From NCBI RefSeq assembly GCF_014635185.1, contig NZ_BMCM01000001.1, forward strand, positions 992,001-1,056,000: DNA of 64,000 nucleotides, read 5' to 3'. The stretch is from Microbacterium murale. Lineage in GTDB: Bacteria; Actinomycetota; Actinomycetes; Actinomycetales; Microbacteriaceae. The notes below the pieces were generated by a model that worked only from the letters and a program-made list of their open reading frames with translations, searched no databases and was not told the DNA's origin. The translations under genes and the position numbers were made by a program. This document shows positions 22,470 to 28,164 of the stretch, piece after piece (the first letter of the stretch is position 1; each line of letters starts with the position of its first letter).

Positions 22470-22710
22470 GCCGCCGTCACCCCGCTACTCGCTCGGCGGG
22501 GTTGACGGGGCGCAGACACACGAAGGGGTGCGCGCGAGTGAAATCGCACGCACCCCAAGTAGTCGGTGTCTGTCGTCTACGTCCCCGAACGTAACCCCAG
22601 TGACTGGCGCCCCCTCGCGCTCCGTGACCCTCCTGGAGCGCTTCGCCTGACACCTTCCGCATATCAGGAGCGATGAGCATCCCTCCTGATACATCGGAAC
22701 GGGAATTCAC
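22470..22710. other. Convergent intergenic gap with three hairpins
   Basis: No gene seen. Three dyads: 22525-22556 (GGGGTGCGCGCGA with TCGCACGCACCCC, one mismatch, 6-nt loop), 22617-22641 (GCGCTCC/GGAGCGC) and 22662-22691 (TATCAGGAG/CTCCTGATA). The first suits termination of the DeoR operon and the last termination of the leftward CHAT gene. Confidence 0.6.
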
Positions 22711-25191
22711 TTAGAATCCGCTGCCGTGGCACTGGAACGGGGTTCGGTGGCCGGTCGCCTCGGACGCCGCGGCCAGTGCGACGGCTGGGCTGTCGCCTCG
22801 GCTGAGGCCTACATGAACCGCGGCCAGGAGGGTGCTGGCGATGTCGTCGGAGACGACTGCGGGAGCGGCGATCACGCTGCGCGTCCCGGCGTGCAACCAC
22901 ACCCGTGTCATCCCGAGCGCCTCCTCACCCCACCGCACCGACGAGTGCCCGAGTTCGCAGGCCGAGAGCACGACCGTCTCGGGTGCGTGCGGGATGAGAT
23001 CGACGTCGTACCCGAACAGTGTGCCGTCGACGAGCTCGAAACCGGCGAACAGCGGGTTGTCGACGGCGTGGTGCCCATGAGCGGCGATGTGCAGCAGGTC
23101 GACGCGTCCGGCGAGGTCGGTGACGGCATCGACTCTCGCATTCTCGCCGGTGAGCACGGCCGGGTCGGACCAGGCGGATGCTGCGGCACGCACCTCTTCG
23201 ACGGCGCGGGGAACGCGCGGCCCGCCGGCGAACCCCACGAACCTCATCGGCGCTGCCGCCGGGCGCTCCTGCATCCATCGCGACGCCGACGTGGCGAGAG
23301 TGAACGGTCGGGCGTGATTGGTCGGCAGCATGGCCCACGGGATGCCGGCGAGGAGGCCGGGCACGGTCAGCACGAGGCGGCGAGCGCCGATCGCGGCACG
23401 CACCGGAGCGAGTAGTGCGTCGTCGAGGCGCAGCATCCGATCGTCCAGCGCGCGAGCGACCACCTCTGCCATCGGACCGCTGCGGATGGAGGCCGACACG
23501 TCGAGGTCTGCGCGCAGCCCGTCGGAGGCGCGCTTCACGTCAGGCCAGTCGAGGTCGACGATGCGGCTGGCGTCGGCAGTCGTGACGAGGCACAGCAGGG
23601 AGGCTCCGGTGAAGACGTAGGACAGCACTGCGGTGTCCGGATCGAGCGAGGCCCTCAACTCGTCGAGCGTCACCCGTGGACGCAGGTCCCCGGCGCCGGT
23701 CGCCGTCCACTGGCGGTCGCGCACTCGATCGCGCAGCGTGCGCACCTGGGGATCGGTGGTCCATTCAGTCCCGGAGAGATCTGTGCGCAGCATCCGCAAC
23801 GTCGCCAGGTCGTCGGCGAGATGACTGTCGCGGGGCGGACGTACGGGGGCCACCTGTTGGCTGAGGTGGCGTGCACGCTCGGACCAGTCGAACAGGATCG
23901 CGGGGTCCCGGCTGTCCCCCGCGGCTGCGAGCCCTCGGAAGATCAGACCGGTGCCGTGCATCGCAAGCGACACCTGCAGGTCGAGCGCGCCGAAGGATCG
24001 TTGCCAATCGGAGAGGAGGTCGAGTCCGTGGGCCGCATGGCGACGGGCTTGCGCTGCGCGTCCGTGCGCCTGCGCGCGAGCGGCGCGCACCTCGGCGGCG
24101 CGCAGGCGCAACGGAGTCGGGGAATCACGCGGAAGCCGGGGGAGGCGCTCAGCCGGATCGCCATCGCCACGCTGATCGGCGGCGAGGGCGGCGCTGAATC
24201 GCACGGCCGTGGCTTCGGCGGGGAATCCGCAGGTGTTGAGCGCATCGACGGTCGCGGCGAATTCGGCGGCGGTCGGGAGAGCGGCATCGCGTCCGCCGAT
24301 GCCCAGGCGATCGTTGGCGACCGCATGGGCGAGTCGGGCATCAAGGCGAATGGCGTCGCTGCGCGCGGCCCAGCTCTCAGCACCGAGCGCGCGGAACCGG
24401 CGGGCAGCCGAGCGAGCGACCCCCTGCGCCCGCTCGGGGTCGTGCCGGACCAGCGAACGGGCGAGGTGGTACTCCGCCTCGGCCTGTGACTGGCGCATCC
24501 GGGCCGCTCCGAACGTCGTGGCGACGCTGTCGAGCAGGCGTTCCGCCTCGTCGACGAGGCCCGCGTCGCGCAGCACCTCGGCCCGATCGAGGTCGCTCAT
24601 CGCCGCACCCTCAGGGGAGGAGGCCGCGATCACCGGGCGCGACCTGGCCATGAGCTCGAGAGCTTCGACGAGGTCGCCGCGCAGCAACGCGGTGTAACCG
24701 AGGTTGTGGCGTGCCTCGGCGGCCGCGGCGACGTCGCCCTCGGCCTCGTAGATCGTGACCGCCTGTTCGAGATCGGCGGTGGACGCGGCGAACGCCCGTC
24801 GGTGCATGTGCACGAGAGAGCGGTTCAACAGGCAGTTGGCGCGCGCTGTGCCGCTGAGGCCCGTGATCGCTCGGGTGAGCATCTCGTCGGCGTCGTCCAG
24901 GCGTCCCGCGCGCGTGAACAGGACGCCCAGCTGGCCTGCGATGATCGCCTGGGTCTCGACGCTCACGCCGTCGCGGTCGAGTGCTTCGCGGCACAACGCC
25001 TCGGCCCGCACCGGTTCGCCGGTCTGCGCGAGCACGTACGCCATGGTCCCCGCGATCCGGGACTGCAGGTCCGCTCCGGCATCCGTCGCCCGCGAGGCCG
25101 CACGTTCGAGGAGCCGGCGCGCCTCTGCGTACCGCTGCGCGTTCGAGGCGTCGCGTCCTCGCTCATACAACTCACGCGCAGTAGTCCCCAT
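22711..25191 (-). CDS. TPR-CHAT protease (caspase-like)
   Basis: 826 residues from ATG 25191; the upstream extension to 25281 runs into a palindromic repeat and is rejected. The N-terminal half or more is helical repeat (Ala/Leu/Arg-rich TPR units such as LYERGRDASNAQRYAEARRLLERAA, ANCLLNRSLVHMHRRAFA). The last 230 residues are a CHAT domain; the likely catalytic pair is His705 in LLHIAAHGHH and Cys745 in VVLSACELG. CHAT proteins are caspase-like cysteine proteases, and TPRs usually sense a partner or substrate. No signal peptide or membrane segment, so cytoplasmic. Last gene of a cassette with a subtilisin-like protease, a small partner and an ECF sigma factor. Confidence 0.88.
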   Translation of the reverse strand: MGTTARELYERGRDASNAQRYAEARRLLERAASRATDAGADLQSRIAGTMAYVLAQTGEPVRAEALCREALDRDGVSVETQAIIAGQLGVLFTRAGRLDDADEMLTRAITGLSGTARANCLLNRSLVHMHRRAFAASTADLEQAVTIYEAEGDVAAAAEARHNLGYTALLRGDLVEALELMARSRPVIAASSPEGAAMSDLDRAEVLRDAGLVDEAERLLDSVATTFGAARMRQSQAEAEYHLARSLVRHDPERAQGVARSAARRFRALGAESWAARSDAIRLDARLAHAVANDRLGIGGRDAALPTAAEFAATVDALNTCGFPAEATAVRFSAALAADQRGDGDPAERLPRLPRDSPTPLRLRAAEVRAARAQAHGRAAQARRHAAHGLDLLSDWQRSFGALDLQVSLAMHGTGLIFRGLAAAGDSRDPAILFDWSERARHLSQQVAPVRPPRDSHLADDLATLRMLRTDLSGTEWTTDPQVRTLRDRVRDRQWTATGAGDLRPRVTLDELRASLDPDTAVLSYVFTGASLLCLVTTADASRIVDLDWPDVKRASDGLRADLDVSASIRSGPMAEVVARALDDRMLRLDDALLAPVRAAIGARRLVLTVPGLLAGIPWAMLPTNHARPFTLATSASRWMQERPAAAPMRFVGFAGGPRVPRAVEEVRAAASAWSDPAVLTGENARVDAVTDLAGRVDLLHIAAHGHHAVDNPLFAGFELVDGTLFGYDVDLIPHAPETVVLSACELGHSSVRWGEEALGMTRVWLHAGTRSVIAAPAVVSDDIASTLLAAVHVGLSRGDSPAVALAAASEATGHRTPFQCHGSGF

Positions 25192-25237
25192 GCTCTCAGG
25201 ATGCCGTGTCCGCCCCGCACGCGAAAGCCTCGGGCGC

Positions 25238-25326
25238 CGGTACAGATGGCGGCCCAAAGGTACAGATGTGGGTTCACACACCGTGTTTCGACCGACATCT
25301 GTGAAAATCCACCGACATCTGTACCG
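25238..25326. repeat. Dispersed palindromic repeat, copy A
   Basis: Outer arms CGGTACAGATG (25238-25248) and CATCTGTACCG (25316-25326) are perfect; inner arms contain TACAGATGTGGGT and ACCGACATCTGTGA. The element fills the gap between the protease and CHAT genes. The same arms recur at 30499, 51214 and 53785. Confidence 0.85.
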
Positions 25327-25368
25327 CGATCAGCCGAAAGCGGTGCGGTCAGCCGGAGGGCGGTGGGG

Positions 25369-26946
25369 TCATCCGAAGGGCGCGAGGGGCGGCAGCTCCT
25401 TCAACACGGCATCCGCTGCCTTCTTCACCACTGCTGCGGGCGCGCACCCGTCGTGCGGTACGACTCCGAGGCGGGCGGCGATCTTCCCTGCCACATACGG
25501 CGCCGCGAACGACGTGCCGCTCCAGGCCGCGAAGCCGCCGCGATAGTCGTCCGGATCGATCGTCTCGCGGGGGAGGTCGCCGATGTCATCCCTGGTGACG
25601 GCCTGCGTCCCGCCCGTGAAGCCCGGAGTCGTCGAGACCACCGCCGCCCCCGGCGCGAAAGTCCGCACCCATGGTCCGACGTTCGAGAACAGCGCCAGCG
25701 ATCGGCGGGAGGGATTGAGCGCCCCGACCGACACCAACGGCACCGCCTTGTCCGCCGAAAGGCCGTTGTCGGCGCCGGGCCATGCCCACAGAGACGCGGG
25801 GAACGATGGGCGATCGATCGCGTCGTTGCCCGCGGAGCACACGATCACCATGCCCAGTCGGCGCGCCGTGCGCAGCAGCTCGTACAGCAGCAGGGAGAAC
25901 TGTCCGTCCTTCGGAGTCTCGTGGTAGTACCCGAGCGACAGGTTCAGCACGTCGATCGGTCGACCGCCTTCTGCTCCCTCCACGAACCGCCGATGCAGCT
26001 CCACGAGTGCCGCAAGCGCTCGCAAGAACGTCGACTCGTCCACCACTCCCAGCGACCCTGCGACCCGGATCGAGAGGATGTCGGCATCCGGGGCAGTCTG
26101 GCGCATCAGGCCCGCGATGAACGTGCCGTGCCCTGCCACCGCATCGATCTCGCCGTCGAGCTGCCCGTAGAGGTCGGGGTAGACCTCGGGGTCATCGGCG
26201 CCGGTGAGGCCGATCGGTGTCCCATCCAGCTCCACCGTCCTGGTCACGATCGAATCGGGCAGCCACTCGTGCACGCCGCATCCCGTGTCGAGCACCGCGA
26301 TGACCGCCCTGCGCCCGCTCCCCTGGTCCGCAGTGCGCACTGGCGCGGCGCCGATCCAGGCGATCGGCTGCCTGCCACCACGACCCGGTTCCATGTAGTC
26401 GTCGCTTCCGACGGCGCCGGCTCCGCGCACCGGATTCGTGCGTGTGAACGGGTTCGTCCGCGTGAACGGGTTCGTGCGTGTGAACGGATTCAGCCCGACG
26501 GGATCGATCGCGAGCACGTGTTCGAGGCCGGCACGCGGCATGGGGCCGCCTGTGATCTTGCGTGCGCGCTGAAGCACACGCCAGGCGTCCGGCGCCACGG
26601 GCGATTCGCCCGCACCGGGCTCGTCCGGGGTGGTGAGTTGAGCGCGATGCAATCCGGGAACGTCCGGGAGGGTGTTCGCACGTCGCCCCGCACGCAACAC
26701 GTCGTCCGCGTCGACCTGCAGCCGCCATCCGAAGGTCCCCGCGGCCTCCATCAGCGCCTTGAGGTCGCGGTCGTAGGCGCCGTTCTCGTCATCGGGATGC
26801 TCGGTTATCAGCATCCGATCCGGCAGATAGGCCGTCGGAAACGCGCGGATGCCCTCGACGGGATCCACACCGGGATCGAGCGCCGCACCACGGGGGATCG
26901 ACCCCTCGGCGCGGTCCTGCCAGCTCCAGCCTCTTGGGTGCTCCAT
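25369..26946 (-). CDS. Cytoplasmic subtilisin-like (S8) serine protease with NPFTRT repeat
   Basis: 525 residues. Catalytic triad: Asp220 (VIAVLDTGCG), His273 (GHGTFIAGLM) and Ser479 (SGTSFAAPYVAGK), with oxyanion Asn374 (CSAGND). There is no signal peptide, so it should act inside the cell. A 150-residue N-terminal domain of unknown fold is joined to the protease by residues 153-170, three exact NPFTRT units, then an NP. This may be a cleavable or binding linker. GAGGGAG precedes the ATG. It sits between the small partner protein and the CHAT gene, so two protease types are in one operon. Confidence 0.92.
   Translation of the reverse strand: MEHPRGWSWQDRAEGSIPRGAALDPGVDPVEGIRAFPTAYLPDRMLITEHPDDENGAYDRDLKALMEAAGTFGWRLQVDADDVLRAGRRANTLPDVPGLHRAQLTTPDEPGAGESPVAPDAWRVLQRARKITGGPMPRAGLEHVLAIDPVGLNPFTRTNPFTRTNPFTRTNPVRGAGAVGSDDYMEPGRGGRQPIAWIGAAPVRTADQGSGRRAVIAVLDTGCGVHEWLPDSIVTRTVELDGTPIGLTGADDPEVYPDLYGQLDGEIDAVAGHGTFIAGLMRQTAPDADILSIRVAGSLGVVDESTFLRALAALVELHRRFVEGAEGGRPIDVLNLSLGYYHETPKDGQFSLLLYELLRTARRLGMVIVCSAGNDAIDRPSFPASLWAWPGADNGLSADKAVPLVSVGALNPSRRSLALFSNVGPWVRTFAPGAAVVSTTPGFTGGTQAVTRDDIGDLPRETIDPDDYRGGFAAWSGTSFAAPYVAGKIAARLGVVPHDGCAPAAVVKKAADAVLKELPPLAPFG
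26437..26490 (-). repeat. Coding 18-bp tandem repeat (NPFTRT x3)
   Basis: Three consecutive 18-nt units encode NPFTRT between the N-terminal and catalytic domains of the S8 protease. The units differ at a few third positions (for example gtgcgtgtgaacg versus gtccgcgtgaacg), so the peptide is kept while the DNA has begun to drift. Confidence 0.9.
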
Positions 26947-27003
26947 CAGATCTCCCTCTCCGCGGCGTCAGTGCCGGGCTCGTCCTCGTGACTGCGTACG
27001 CTC

Positions 27004-27465
27004 TCAGACTTCGAATTGCGGCGTGAGCAGATCCTTCGCAGCTCCGGTGATGATGAGCAGTGCACGGCTGAGTCCCGCGGGTATCTCGTCGAACGCGCAC
27101 CGACCCTGCTCGTCCGGTACAGCCGTCCAGATGCGCTCGCCGCGCCCCTCGCCCTGAATCAGACGCAGCTCGGCGGCGTCGGCATCCACCCAACCGTCCA
27201 CTCGGCGCCGACCGCTCGCCGTGCGGCTGATGTGCAGCAGGATGCTCGCCTTGCCGTCGCTGAATTGCAGCGTGGTCGTATCGCTGTCGCCGCGAACGGC
27301 TGCGTGCGCATTCTCCATCAGCGTCAGCAGAGCGTACTCGCGCGAGACATCTGCGACCGCGACCGCGGCGATCATGCGGTCGGCGAGACCCTGCGGCATC
27401 GGATCGATCTCGTCGATCGTTGTGCGCAGGAGCGCGAAGAGCTCATCATCCGAGCGGCTCATCAT
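27004..27465 (-). CDS. Small partner protein of the sigma/protease cassette
   Basis: 153 residues from ATG 27465 (a second ATG follows directly), overlapping the sigma-factor stop by 20 nt, which implies translational coupling. N-terminus is helical with the motif DPMPQGLADRMIAAVAVADVSREYALLTL; I recall similar D-P-x-P-x-G-L/V-x-x-R stretches in proteins beside actinobacterial sigma factors. The second half alternates hydrophobic residues as in a beta-sandwich (RVDGWVDADAAELRLIQ..., GLSRALLIITGAAKDLL). No membrane segment, so not a classical membrane anti-sigma factor. It may bind the sigma factor and be a protease target, but that is inference. Confidence 0.7.
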   Translation of the reverse strand: MMSRSDDELFALLRTTIDEIDPMPQGLADRMIAAVAVADVSREYALLTLMENAHAAVRGDSDTTTLQFSDGKASILLHISRTASGRRRVDGWVDADAAELRLIQGEGRGERIWTAVPDEQGRCAFDEIPAGLSRALLIITGAAKDLLTPQFEV

Positions 27466-28084
27466 GACCTCCCTCGGCCGGCGCGAGCCCCGTGCGCACC
27501 AGCTCGGTGCGCAGCTTCGCGAGGCATCGTCTGCGAGTCGGGCCGATGCTGCCGATCGGCATGTCGAGGTCGGTGGCGATCGTGGCGTAGTCCGGTCGGT
27601 CATCGAAGGCCACGACGCGCAACAGTCGCTGGCAGCGTTCGTTGAGCGTGCTGACAGCGGCCCAGATGCGTCGAGCCTCGTCGGATGCTGCGACCTCGGT
27701 CTCGGCCGATTCCTGTGGCGGAAGCATGGGCTCGAGCAGATCGTCCGCCGTGGCATCCGCTCGTCGCTGCCCCTTGCTGACCCGCCATGCCTCGCGGCGC
27801 GCGGTGACGGTGAGCCAGCCGGAGACCGCCCGGCCGTCTGCGATCCTGTCGTGTCCGCGCACGAGCGCGAGCCAGGTCGACTGCACGACGTCTTCAGCGA
27901 GTGAGCGTTCGAGCCCGTACGCGCGTACGACGTGCCACAGCACGGGGGTCATGAGGCGCACCAGGTCATCCATGGCACGCCCGTTTCCGGAGCGCCAGTC
28001 GGCGAACAGATCAGCCGCGCGTTCCCAGCGCGCCGATCCGTCGCTGACGGCGCCCGCGGGAGAGGCGTCGGTCATGAAGATCAT
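27446..28084 (-). CDS. ECF-type RNA polymerase sigma factor
   Basis: 212 residues from ATG 28084; ATGs at 28129 and 28075 are also possible and none has a convincing ribosome site. Region 2 includes LAEDVVQSTWLALVRGHDRI (core binding and -10 recognition); region 4 is CQRLLRVVAFDDRPDYATIATDLDMPIGSIGPTRRRCLAKLRTEL, an HTH for -35 recognition. Only sigma-2 and sigma-4 are present, so it is extracytoplasmic-function class. First gene of the leftward cassette with the small partner, S8 protease and TPR-CHAT protease, which suggests control of the sigma factor by proteolysis or control of the proteases by the sigma factor. Confidence 0.9.
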   Translation of the reverse strand: MIFMTDASPAGAVSDGSARWERAADLFADWRSGNGRAMDDLVRLMTPVLWHVVRAYGLERSLAEDVVQSTWLALVRGHDRIADGRAVSGWLTVTARREAWRVSKGQRRADATADDLLEPMLPPQESAETEVAASDEARRIWAAVSTLNERCQRLLRVVAFDDRPDYATIATDLDMPIGSIGPTRRRCLAKLRTELVRTGLAPAEGGHDEPLG

Positions 28085-28164
28085 TGTGCTCACATCTACC
28101 AGGAGCGCGGCAAGGGGTCTCTGATACATCGGTCGCGAAGCTCGGCCGCGCCTAGGCTGAAGGG

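Follow-up and report, generated by a model that had tools for sequence, protein, structure and literature searches.

ECF54, a group of extracytoplasmic function (ECF) sigma factors, is described in the relevant part of a 2022 review (PMC8999054) as having carboxypeptidase, subtilase and CHAT proteins conserved in its genetic context, and proteolytic control without an anti-sigma factor is reported there to have been proposed for it. In type III-E CRISPR, Csx29 cuts Csx30 and relieves a sigma factor, according to the portion of PMC10028731 that deals with this step. Here we analyse a stretch of 64,000 nucleotides from Microbacterium murale (contig NZ_BMCM01000001.1 of assembly GCF_014635185.1; G000:C1:992001-1056000, where G000 is the window's own genome), called the window throughout, which carries on its minus strand a cassette of four genes encoding an ECF sigma factor, a small partner, an S8 subtilase and a tetratricopeptide repeat (TPR)-CHAT protease. 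Alongside these four conserved genes, a promoter-like element occurs twice: ahead of the operon, and again behind CHAT, where it precedes a predicted structured RNA. The gene set itself is already known through ECF54; the promoter element and the RNA are the parts added here. From the sequence we read the cassette, with middling confidence, as an ECF54-type switch in which the sigma factor would drive its own operon and this RNA. An earlier note on the window, made from its letters, had stated that no such gene set was known to it from a described pathway, a statement that is overtaken by the same part of PMC8999054, which gives these neighbours, and proteolytic control as a proposal, for ECF54.

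The earlier note had proposed a neighbourhood survey, and the survey found that the genes form a conserved module. The order sigma-small-S8-CHAT on a single strand, with all four genes, was seen in 39 of the 43 named loci, that is, CHAT relatives in named genomes (42 Microbacterium records and one "Microbacteriaceae bacterium"); L074 gave fragmentary matches, and in a few other loci the matches are split. The exceptions have CHAT at a contig edge (L050, L063 and L069) or the small protein apparently about 15 kb away (L036). Among 29 short loci (L003-L031), sigma precedes the small gene in every one and S8 comes next in 26; two of the exceptions stop at contig edges, and in L031 the small gene is followed directly by CHAT. 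Searches of 149 genomes drawn from the window's own genus, which we call Microbacterium genomes, found the small protein in 82, including G043, where the match is weak and partial (E 5.7e-4) and is not confirmed by the profile. Across a class sample of 296 genomes and 114 genera, the small-protein profile matches 35 genomes in 21 genera, 29 of the 35 lying outside the genus. From these 29 we fetched 20 loci, mostly the better matches, and located them through the small protein. Sigma adjoins the small gene in all 20. The complete set of four was found in 15, with S8 after the small gene in seven, before sigma in six and inverted between the small gene and CHAT in two. No S8 or CHAT gene was seen in the remaining five, of which L112 and L117 are short contigs; L115, L118 and L121 hold sigma and the small protein with neither protease within a 14-kb stretch and are possibly a two-gene form of the module. 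In G034 (L261:3743-7691), S8 and CHAT are separated by an insertion of five genes on the opposite strand, with sigma-small-S8 and CHAT-RNA intact on either side. Judging by gene content and order, the four-gene set is conserved beyond chance, and, the genes being conserved together in other genomes, the first of the two conditions that the earlier note had set for refuting its proteolytic switch does not refute it.

The promoter-like element came out of an alignment of 68 regions upstream of sigma, and the same element was then seen behind CHAT. TGTATCA-N15-GCTC has exactly two matches in the whole of G000, before sigma and just past CHAT (Table 1). A slightly looser form lies upstream of sigma in 60 of the 68 sequences, several of the eight misses having a mis-set start or another spacing. 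On the other side of the cassette, TGTATC or GTATCAG occurs 20-56 nt beyond the last matched CHAT codon in 38 of the 43 named loci, about 4 kb further from CHAT in L041 and L051, and behind a broken or partial CHAT match in L068 and L074; it was not found beyond CHAT in L069. A survey of 59 Microbacterium genomes (29 cassette-positive and 30 cassette-negative, G043 counted as negative) gave 72 matches to TGTATCA-N15-GCTC, 41 of them within 15 kb of the cassette. The 31 elsewhere (19 in cassette-positive and 12 in cassette-negative genomes) compare with 33 matches of the reversed pattern over all 59 genomes; in Microbacterium, exact copies away from the cassette do not exceed chance. In the 29 cassette-positive genomes the element was found upstream of sigma in 16, on the CHAT side (same strand, over 3 kb beyond the small gene) in 21, at both places in 13 and at either in 24. 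The start of sigma is further marked by an inverted repeat, TGTG-N2-CA[C/G]A (TGTGNNCA[CG]A), which is present in 65 of the 68 upstream sequences and in none of 43 within 70 nt of promoter 2. The TGTG-N2-CACA form is also present in L105 and L106 of another genus, and it is a possible operator of some regulator.

Behind the second copy of the element lies the RNA. We extracted 43 sequences, of which 39 fitted the trimming pattern (not L064, L065, L066 or L074), and aligned 34 as A6, which also leaves out L055, L059, L062, L070 and L073. A 26-pair structure, set by hand from L036 and the window, pairs 89.4% of cells on A6 compared with 30-47% when slid. This fraction favours the structure because it was hand-set from those two sequences, and the double-change counts are the safer measure: 46 cells with double changes compared with 13.7 in shuffles, and nine pairs with such a change compared with 4.4. 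Unsupervised RNAalifold gave a weak consensus of 14 pairs at -8.3 kcal/mol. Folded singly, on stretches that include the terminator-like hairpin wholly or partly, the window RNA has a z of -3.74, L032 of -5.13, L036 of -3.51 and L064 of -4.00. TGGGG occurs 105 times in 56 RNAs (the 43 extracted and 13 diverged ones described below) compared with 27.6 (standard deviation 5.2) in dinucleotide shuffles, exactly twice in 41 of the 56, and 67% of the positions in its GGGG are unpaired, compared with 39% of all positions. Rfam 15 has nothing over the gathering cut-off in the window, the matches at laxer E-values being sub-threshold. We also considered a coding gene in place of the RNA and rejected it: the longest open reading frames (ORFs) differ in start codon, phase and end between species, and many exceed the stretch examined; the alignment shows single-base insertions and deletions, and no reading frame consistent among the relatives was seen. 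An earlier description of a sigma-dependent RNA with this cassette was not found in the open-licence literature, a coverage that lacks most subscription papers.

The RNA might be an unrelated neighbour, a terminator or leader that shares the motif by chance or for another factor. In the window it lies between convergent genes, where terminators are expected, and it is about 4 kb from CHAT in L041 and L051 and about 7.7 kb away in G001, all of which would suit an unrelated RNA. Against this, all but one of the 43 named loci show the TGTATC/GTATCAG element beyond CHAT, and in L262 the RNA retains its promoter element despite an insertion of several kilobases between RNA and CHAT. A covariance model built for the RNA has one match each in 28 of the 149 genus genomes, and these matches are confined to cassette-positive genomes (28 of 82, compared with none of the 67 others; Fisher p 5e-9, with relatedness of the genomes not corrected for). 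All but one of them share a contig with the small gene, at a distance of 4.4-12.6 kb (within 6.5 kb for 24); the match in G066 is on another contig than the small gene. We regard an unrelated RNA as very unlikely.

Table 1. Features of the cassette and its flanks, in window coordinates.
Feature	Position	Strand	Description
Terminator-like hairpin behind RNA	22525..22556	-	13-bp stem, strong; no clear U tract
Structured RNA (predicted)	22559..22661	-	about 100 nt; closing stem, hairpins, G-rich loops
Promoter-like element 2, TGTATCA-N15-GCTC	22668..22693	-	17 nt past CHAT stop codon
TPR-CHAT cysteine protease (P0004)	22711..25191	-	826 aa; PF12770 3.2e-27; separase-like fold
CATCCT, candidate -10 of separate leaderless CHAT promoter (ATG at 25191)	25198..25203	-	
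S8 subtilase (P0003)	25369..26946	-	PF00082 9e-22; N-terminal domain, NPFTRT x3 repeat, catalytic domain
Small partner (P0001)	27004..27465	-	153 aa; N-terminal helices and beta-sandwich; candidate anti-sigma factor
ECF sigma factor (P0002)	27446..28084	-	212 aa; TIGR02937 2.1e-15 over residues 37-195
Inverted repeat TGTG-N2-CACA abutting sigma start codon	28085..28094	-	operator or leader element (candidate)
Promoter-like element 1, TGTATCA-N15-GCTC, before sigma	28103..28128	-	candidate autoregulatory ECF promoter

All four genes are present as the earlier note had described them, with Pfam or TIGR matches to the sigma factor and the two proteases, and its 20-nt overlap of the small gene with sigma was confirmed. 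Its coordinates fit the four genes and include neither the sigma promoter element nor the RNA. New to the present analysis are both promoter-like elements, the TGTG-N2-CACA repeat, the threefold NPFTRT of S8 and the RNA (22559-22661).

The DPxPxGLxxR motif that had been picked out in the small protein reads DPMPQGLADR in the window, and all 31 aligned sequences share D21, P22, P24 and L27. The predicted structure has a mean pLDDT (predicted local distance difference test) of 78.3 and a confident seven-stranded sandwich at residues 63-139. No Pfam, NCBIfam or PADLOC family matched P0001 at E<=1, and the Pfam scan gave no CarboxypepD_reg match in P0001 itself; one of three distant homologues scanned has a weak CarboxypepD_reg match (9e-4, below the Pfam cut-off). 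The small protein is plausibly the "carboxypeptidase" of the ECF54 context. A rather unlikely alternative is that there is no anti-sigma factor at all: the proteases would degrade sigma itself and keep the system off, and the small beta-sandwich protein would be an adaptor or a regulator of the proteases. The small protein matches no anti-sigma family in Pfam or NCBIfam, in keeping with this alternative, and control by degradation of sigma is reported as proposed for ECF54, with ClpXP acting in this way on the sigma factor AntA (PMC8999054, in the part on proteolytic control). Set against it are the constancy of the small protein as a neighbour of sigma in 20 of 20 class loci, which were found through the small protein, the persistence of the pair in five loci where S8 and CHAT are not visible (two of them short contigs), the overlap of the two genes and the predicted helical N-terminus. 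We prefer to view the small protein as a candidate anti-sigma factor.

The catalytic residues proposed for the two proteases are borne out by their relatives, Asp220, His273 and Ser479 of S8 being invariant in 25 of 25 aligned homologues and His705 and Cys745 of CHAT in 28 of 28. No signal peptide was seen in the S8 protein. Its N-terminal domain probably has a subtilase propeptide-like beta-alpha-beta-beta-alpha-beta fold and is separated from the catalytic domain by an exact tandem repeat, NPFTRT x3, at residues 153-170 (window:26437-26490). Each of the 36 full-length S8 proteins from the named loci carries an exact tandem repeat whose unit varies with lineage: NPFTRT, NPFSRT or NPFSHT three times in 34, and PYGSTN seven to eight times in two. 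Units outside the named loci include NPFKG, NPHSIT, APFTRG and HPYDSS, and no tandem repeat was seen in the shorter S8 proteins of L119, L122 and L124. For CHAT, the start at 25191 is the one common to its relatives, and a longer ORF with a GTG start extends to 25281. A block resembling a leaderless promoter is conserved before CHAT in 29 of 39 S8-CHAT gaps, and CATCCT in the window is a candidate -10 of such a promoter for CHAT; the -35 word there deviates from the consensus. Words of the types ACAGATGTCGGT and ACATCTGTAC recur in the window's S8-CHAT gap, at window:25236-25322, and occur in both orientations. The predicted CHAT structure (mean pLDDT 84.7) retrieved human separase (9hm7, 1.1e-13) and Csx29 (8eex_B, 3.6e-9) in Foldseek, which upholds the earlier note's appeal to type III-E CRISPR as a precedent in logic; no PDB sequence matched the CHAT protein at E<=1.

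CHAT and TPR proteins are common in biological conflict systems, and the cassette could be an anti-phage system in which CHAT and S8 are effectors regulated by sigma and the RNA. The lineage-dependent variation of the S8 repeats would fit such a system, as would the match of S8 to IetS at 4e-7, which scores only 26.6 bits. PADLOC returned IetS and subtilase matches only for S8, at most 26.6 bits, and no match at E<=1 for the other three proteins, and several cassette loci of other genera sit among genes whose N-termini make them look like housekeeping genes; both points speak against a conflict system. The hint in this direction in the earlier note gains little from these results, and we consider a conflict system quite improbable.

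In other genera, 12 of the 20 class loci (L105-L111, L113, L119, L120, L122 and L123) have GTATCA-N(14-17)-NCTC at the start of the operon, ahead of its first gene (sigma or S8) or of a small ORF that comes before that gene. In eight cassette-positive genomes of other genera, hand-picked from the best matches, GTATCA-N16-CTC has 35 matches compared with seven for the reversed pattern. Partial support for the element comes from genus g38, where sites recur at orthologous places in different species: before a protein of about 630 aa with a signal-peptide-like start (L183, L258), before a protein of about 236 aa (L180, L185), and, with the same genes on either side, ahead of a putative G-rich RNA (L181, L256, L184). 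In genus g50, G211 and G301 have only two sites each, before sigma and before a 105-aa ORF beyond CHAT, and no site was found at the cassette of G283 and G320 in the fixed form. At L110:2917-3234 and L111:2579-2896, 105-aa ORFs that resemble each other stand behind the second GTATCA element beyond CHAT. A chagasin/I42-type inhibitor was considered for these two ORFs from their appearance and set aside as a guess, Pfam giving only PF22425 (ORF126-like) below its cut-off. GTATCA sites also precede basic peptide ORFs of about 60-75 aa near the cassette (L119:4815, L123:9413, L122:5528 and L120:4423), those of L119 and L123 resembling each other, and several sites of G354 lie in front of genes whose products have signal-peptide-like starts.

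Our preferred reading, an ECF54-type switch, would work as follows. Sigma would read both copies of the element, and in doing so would amplify its own operon and have a single RNA as output. Sigma would be held inactive by the small protein, which is coupled to it and combines helices with a beta-sandwich. The separase-like CHAT protease, apparently under its own promoter, would sense a signal through its TPR repeats and trigger a proteolytic step, and proteolysis of the small protein, or of the repeat linker in an S8 zymogen, would free sigma. The RNA may be the output of the switch and could act by means of its G-rich loops, which would pair with C-rich targets or bind a protein. The proteolytic switch that the earlier note had suggested is a fair reading, its mechanism being our conjecture. 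It is a long shot that the RNA is not a mere output and that its G-rich loops, by binding TPR-CHAT or the small protein, determine the threshold at which the switch responds, in a CRISPR-independent feedback loop of RNA, protease and sigma; the second product, which varies between RNA, basic peptide and small protein, would then be the exchangeable effector of a widespread module.

Several results weigh against the ECF54-type switch with its RNA. The paired fraction of the 26-pair structure shows little excess over the 86.3% obtained with the 3' letters shuffled, further pair types on A6 are not above shuffles (23 compared with 22.5), and three of the seven single folds are no better than shuffles (L046, z -1.35; L074, -0.53; L066, -0.25). 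The RNA model, under strict filters, misses 54 of the 82 cassette-positive genomes. Of these 54 we inspected 17: in thirteen, a diverged G-rich RNA comes after a second site, and in four the arrangement was not seen, the sites being arranged otherwise in L147 and L150 and no exact site being found in L149 and L152. The 13, together with L064-L066 and L074, make up 17 diverged RNAs that were read and folded singly. For the small protein, no PDB sequence matched at E<=10, the three helices at residues 6-49, where a class I anti-sigma factor would have its sigma-binding domain, are predicted at low confidence (pLDDT about 52-70), and the fold search gave generic folds only in the best 50 of 1039 rows (best 8.6e-3). 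Eight of the 20 class loci have no element at the operon start, L114 and L116 having GTATCA at a different spacing. The loose motif gives a less clean picture in a wider sample, with 107 matches compared with 60 reversed in 20 cassette-positive genomes and 56 compared with 79 in 18 cassette-negative ones, and we therefore claim no class-wide regulon. UGGGG occurs once in the putative RNA of L174 and is absent from those of L181, L184 and L109, all outside the genus. Second sites in other genera precede peptides, the 105-aa protein or secreted proteins, and because these genes are so varied the restricted regulon of Microbacterium is not universal.

If the switch operates as proposed, the sigma factor would seem to serve, apart from its own operon, just one non-coding RNA. 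For a sigma group that has been little studied, the cassette supplies a promoter element that can be tested, a predicted regulon of two promoters and a candidate new structured RNA. It also allows one to ask, outside CRISPR, which substrates separase-like CHAT proteases cut in the company of a sigma factor, and for what reason sigma keeps a cytoplasmic subtilase with a lineage-specific exact repeat as its neighbour.

Among the systems compared, ECF54 is likened to the cassette by gene context only: an ECF sigma factor stands with S8 and CHAT neighbours recognised by Pfam, and the carboxypeptidase part of the likeness is weak. The two differ in that section 3.3 of PMC8999054 names no promoter, regulon, RNA or S8 repeat. 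With the Csx29/Csx30/CASP-sigma set of type III-E CRISPR, the cassette has in common a TPR-CHAT protease, an ECF sigma factor and a sigma partner encoded together, and the Csx29 fold is found for its CHAT model. It differs in having no gRAMP/Cas7-11 among its four genes (no CRISPR or cas search was made), in having an S8 protease, and in its small protein, which lacks a PDB sequence match; by analogy, Csx29-Csx30 is a parallel in logic and protease fold and not evidence of membership. Eukaryotic separase, the best fold match of the CHAT model, has the fold only in common with it, at 10-15% identity among the separase rows listed. The type VII secretion system mycosin and the intracellular subtilisins are among the nearest subtilase families to S8 by sequence (TIGR03921, 67.3 bits, and chains of intracellular subtilisins). 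The mycosin score falls far short of the TIGR03921 cut-off of 278.75 bits, S8 shows no signal peptide, and the exact repeats between N-terminal and catalytic domains set S8 apart from both families. RNAs of the CsrB/RsmZ type have GGA loops, and the cassette RNA resembles them in its repeated, mostly unpaired G-rich motifs; its own motif is UGGGG, usually in two copies.

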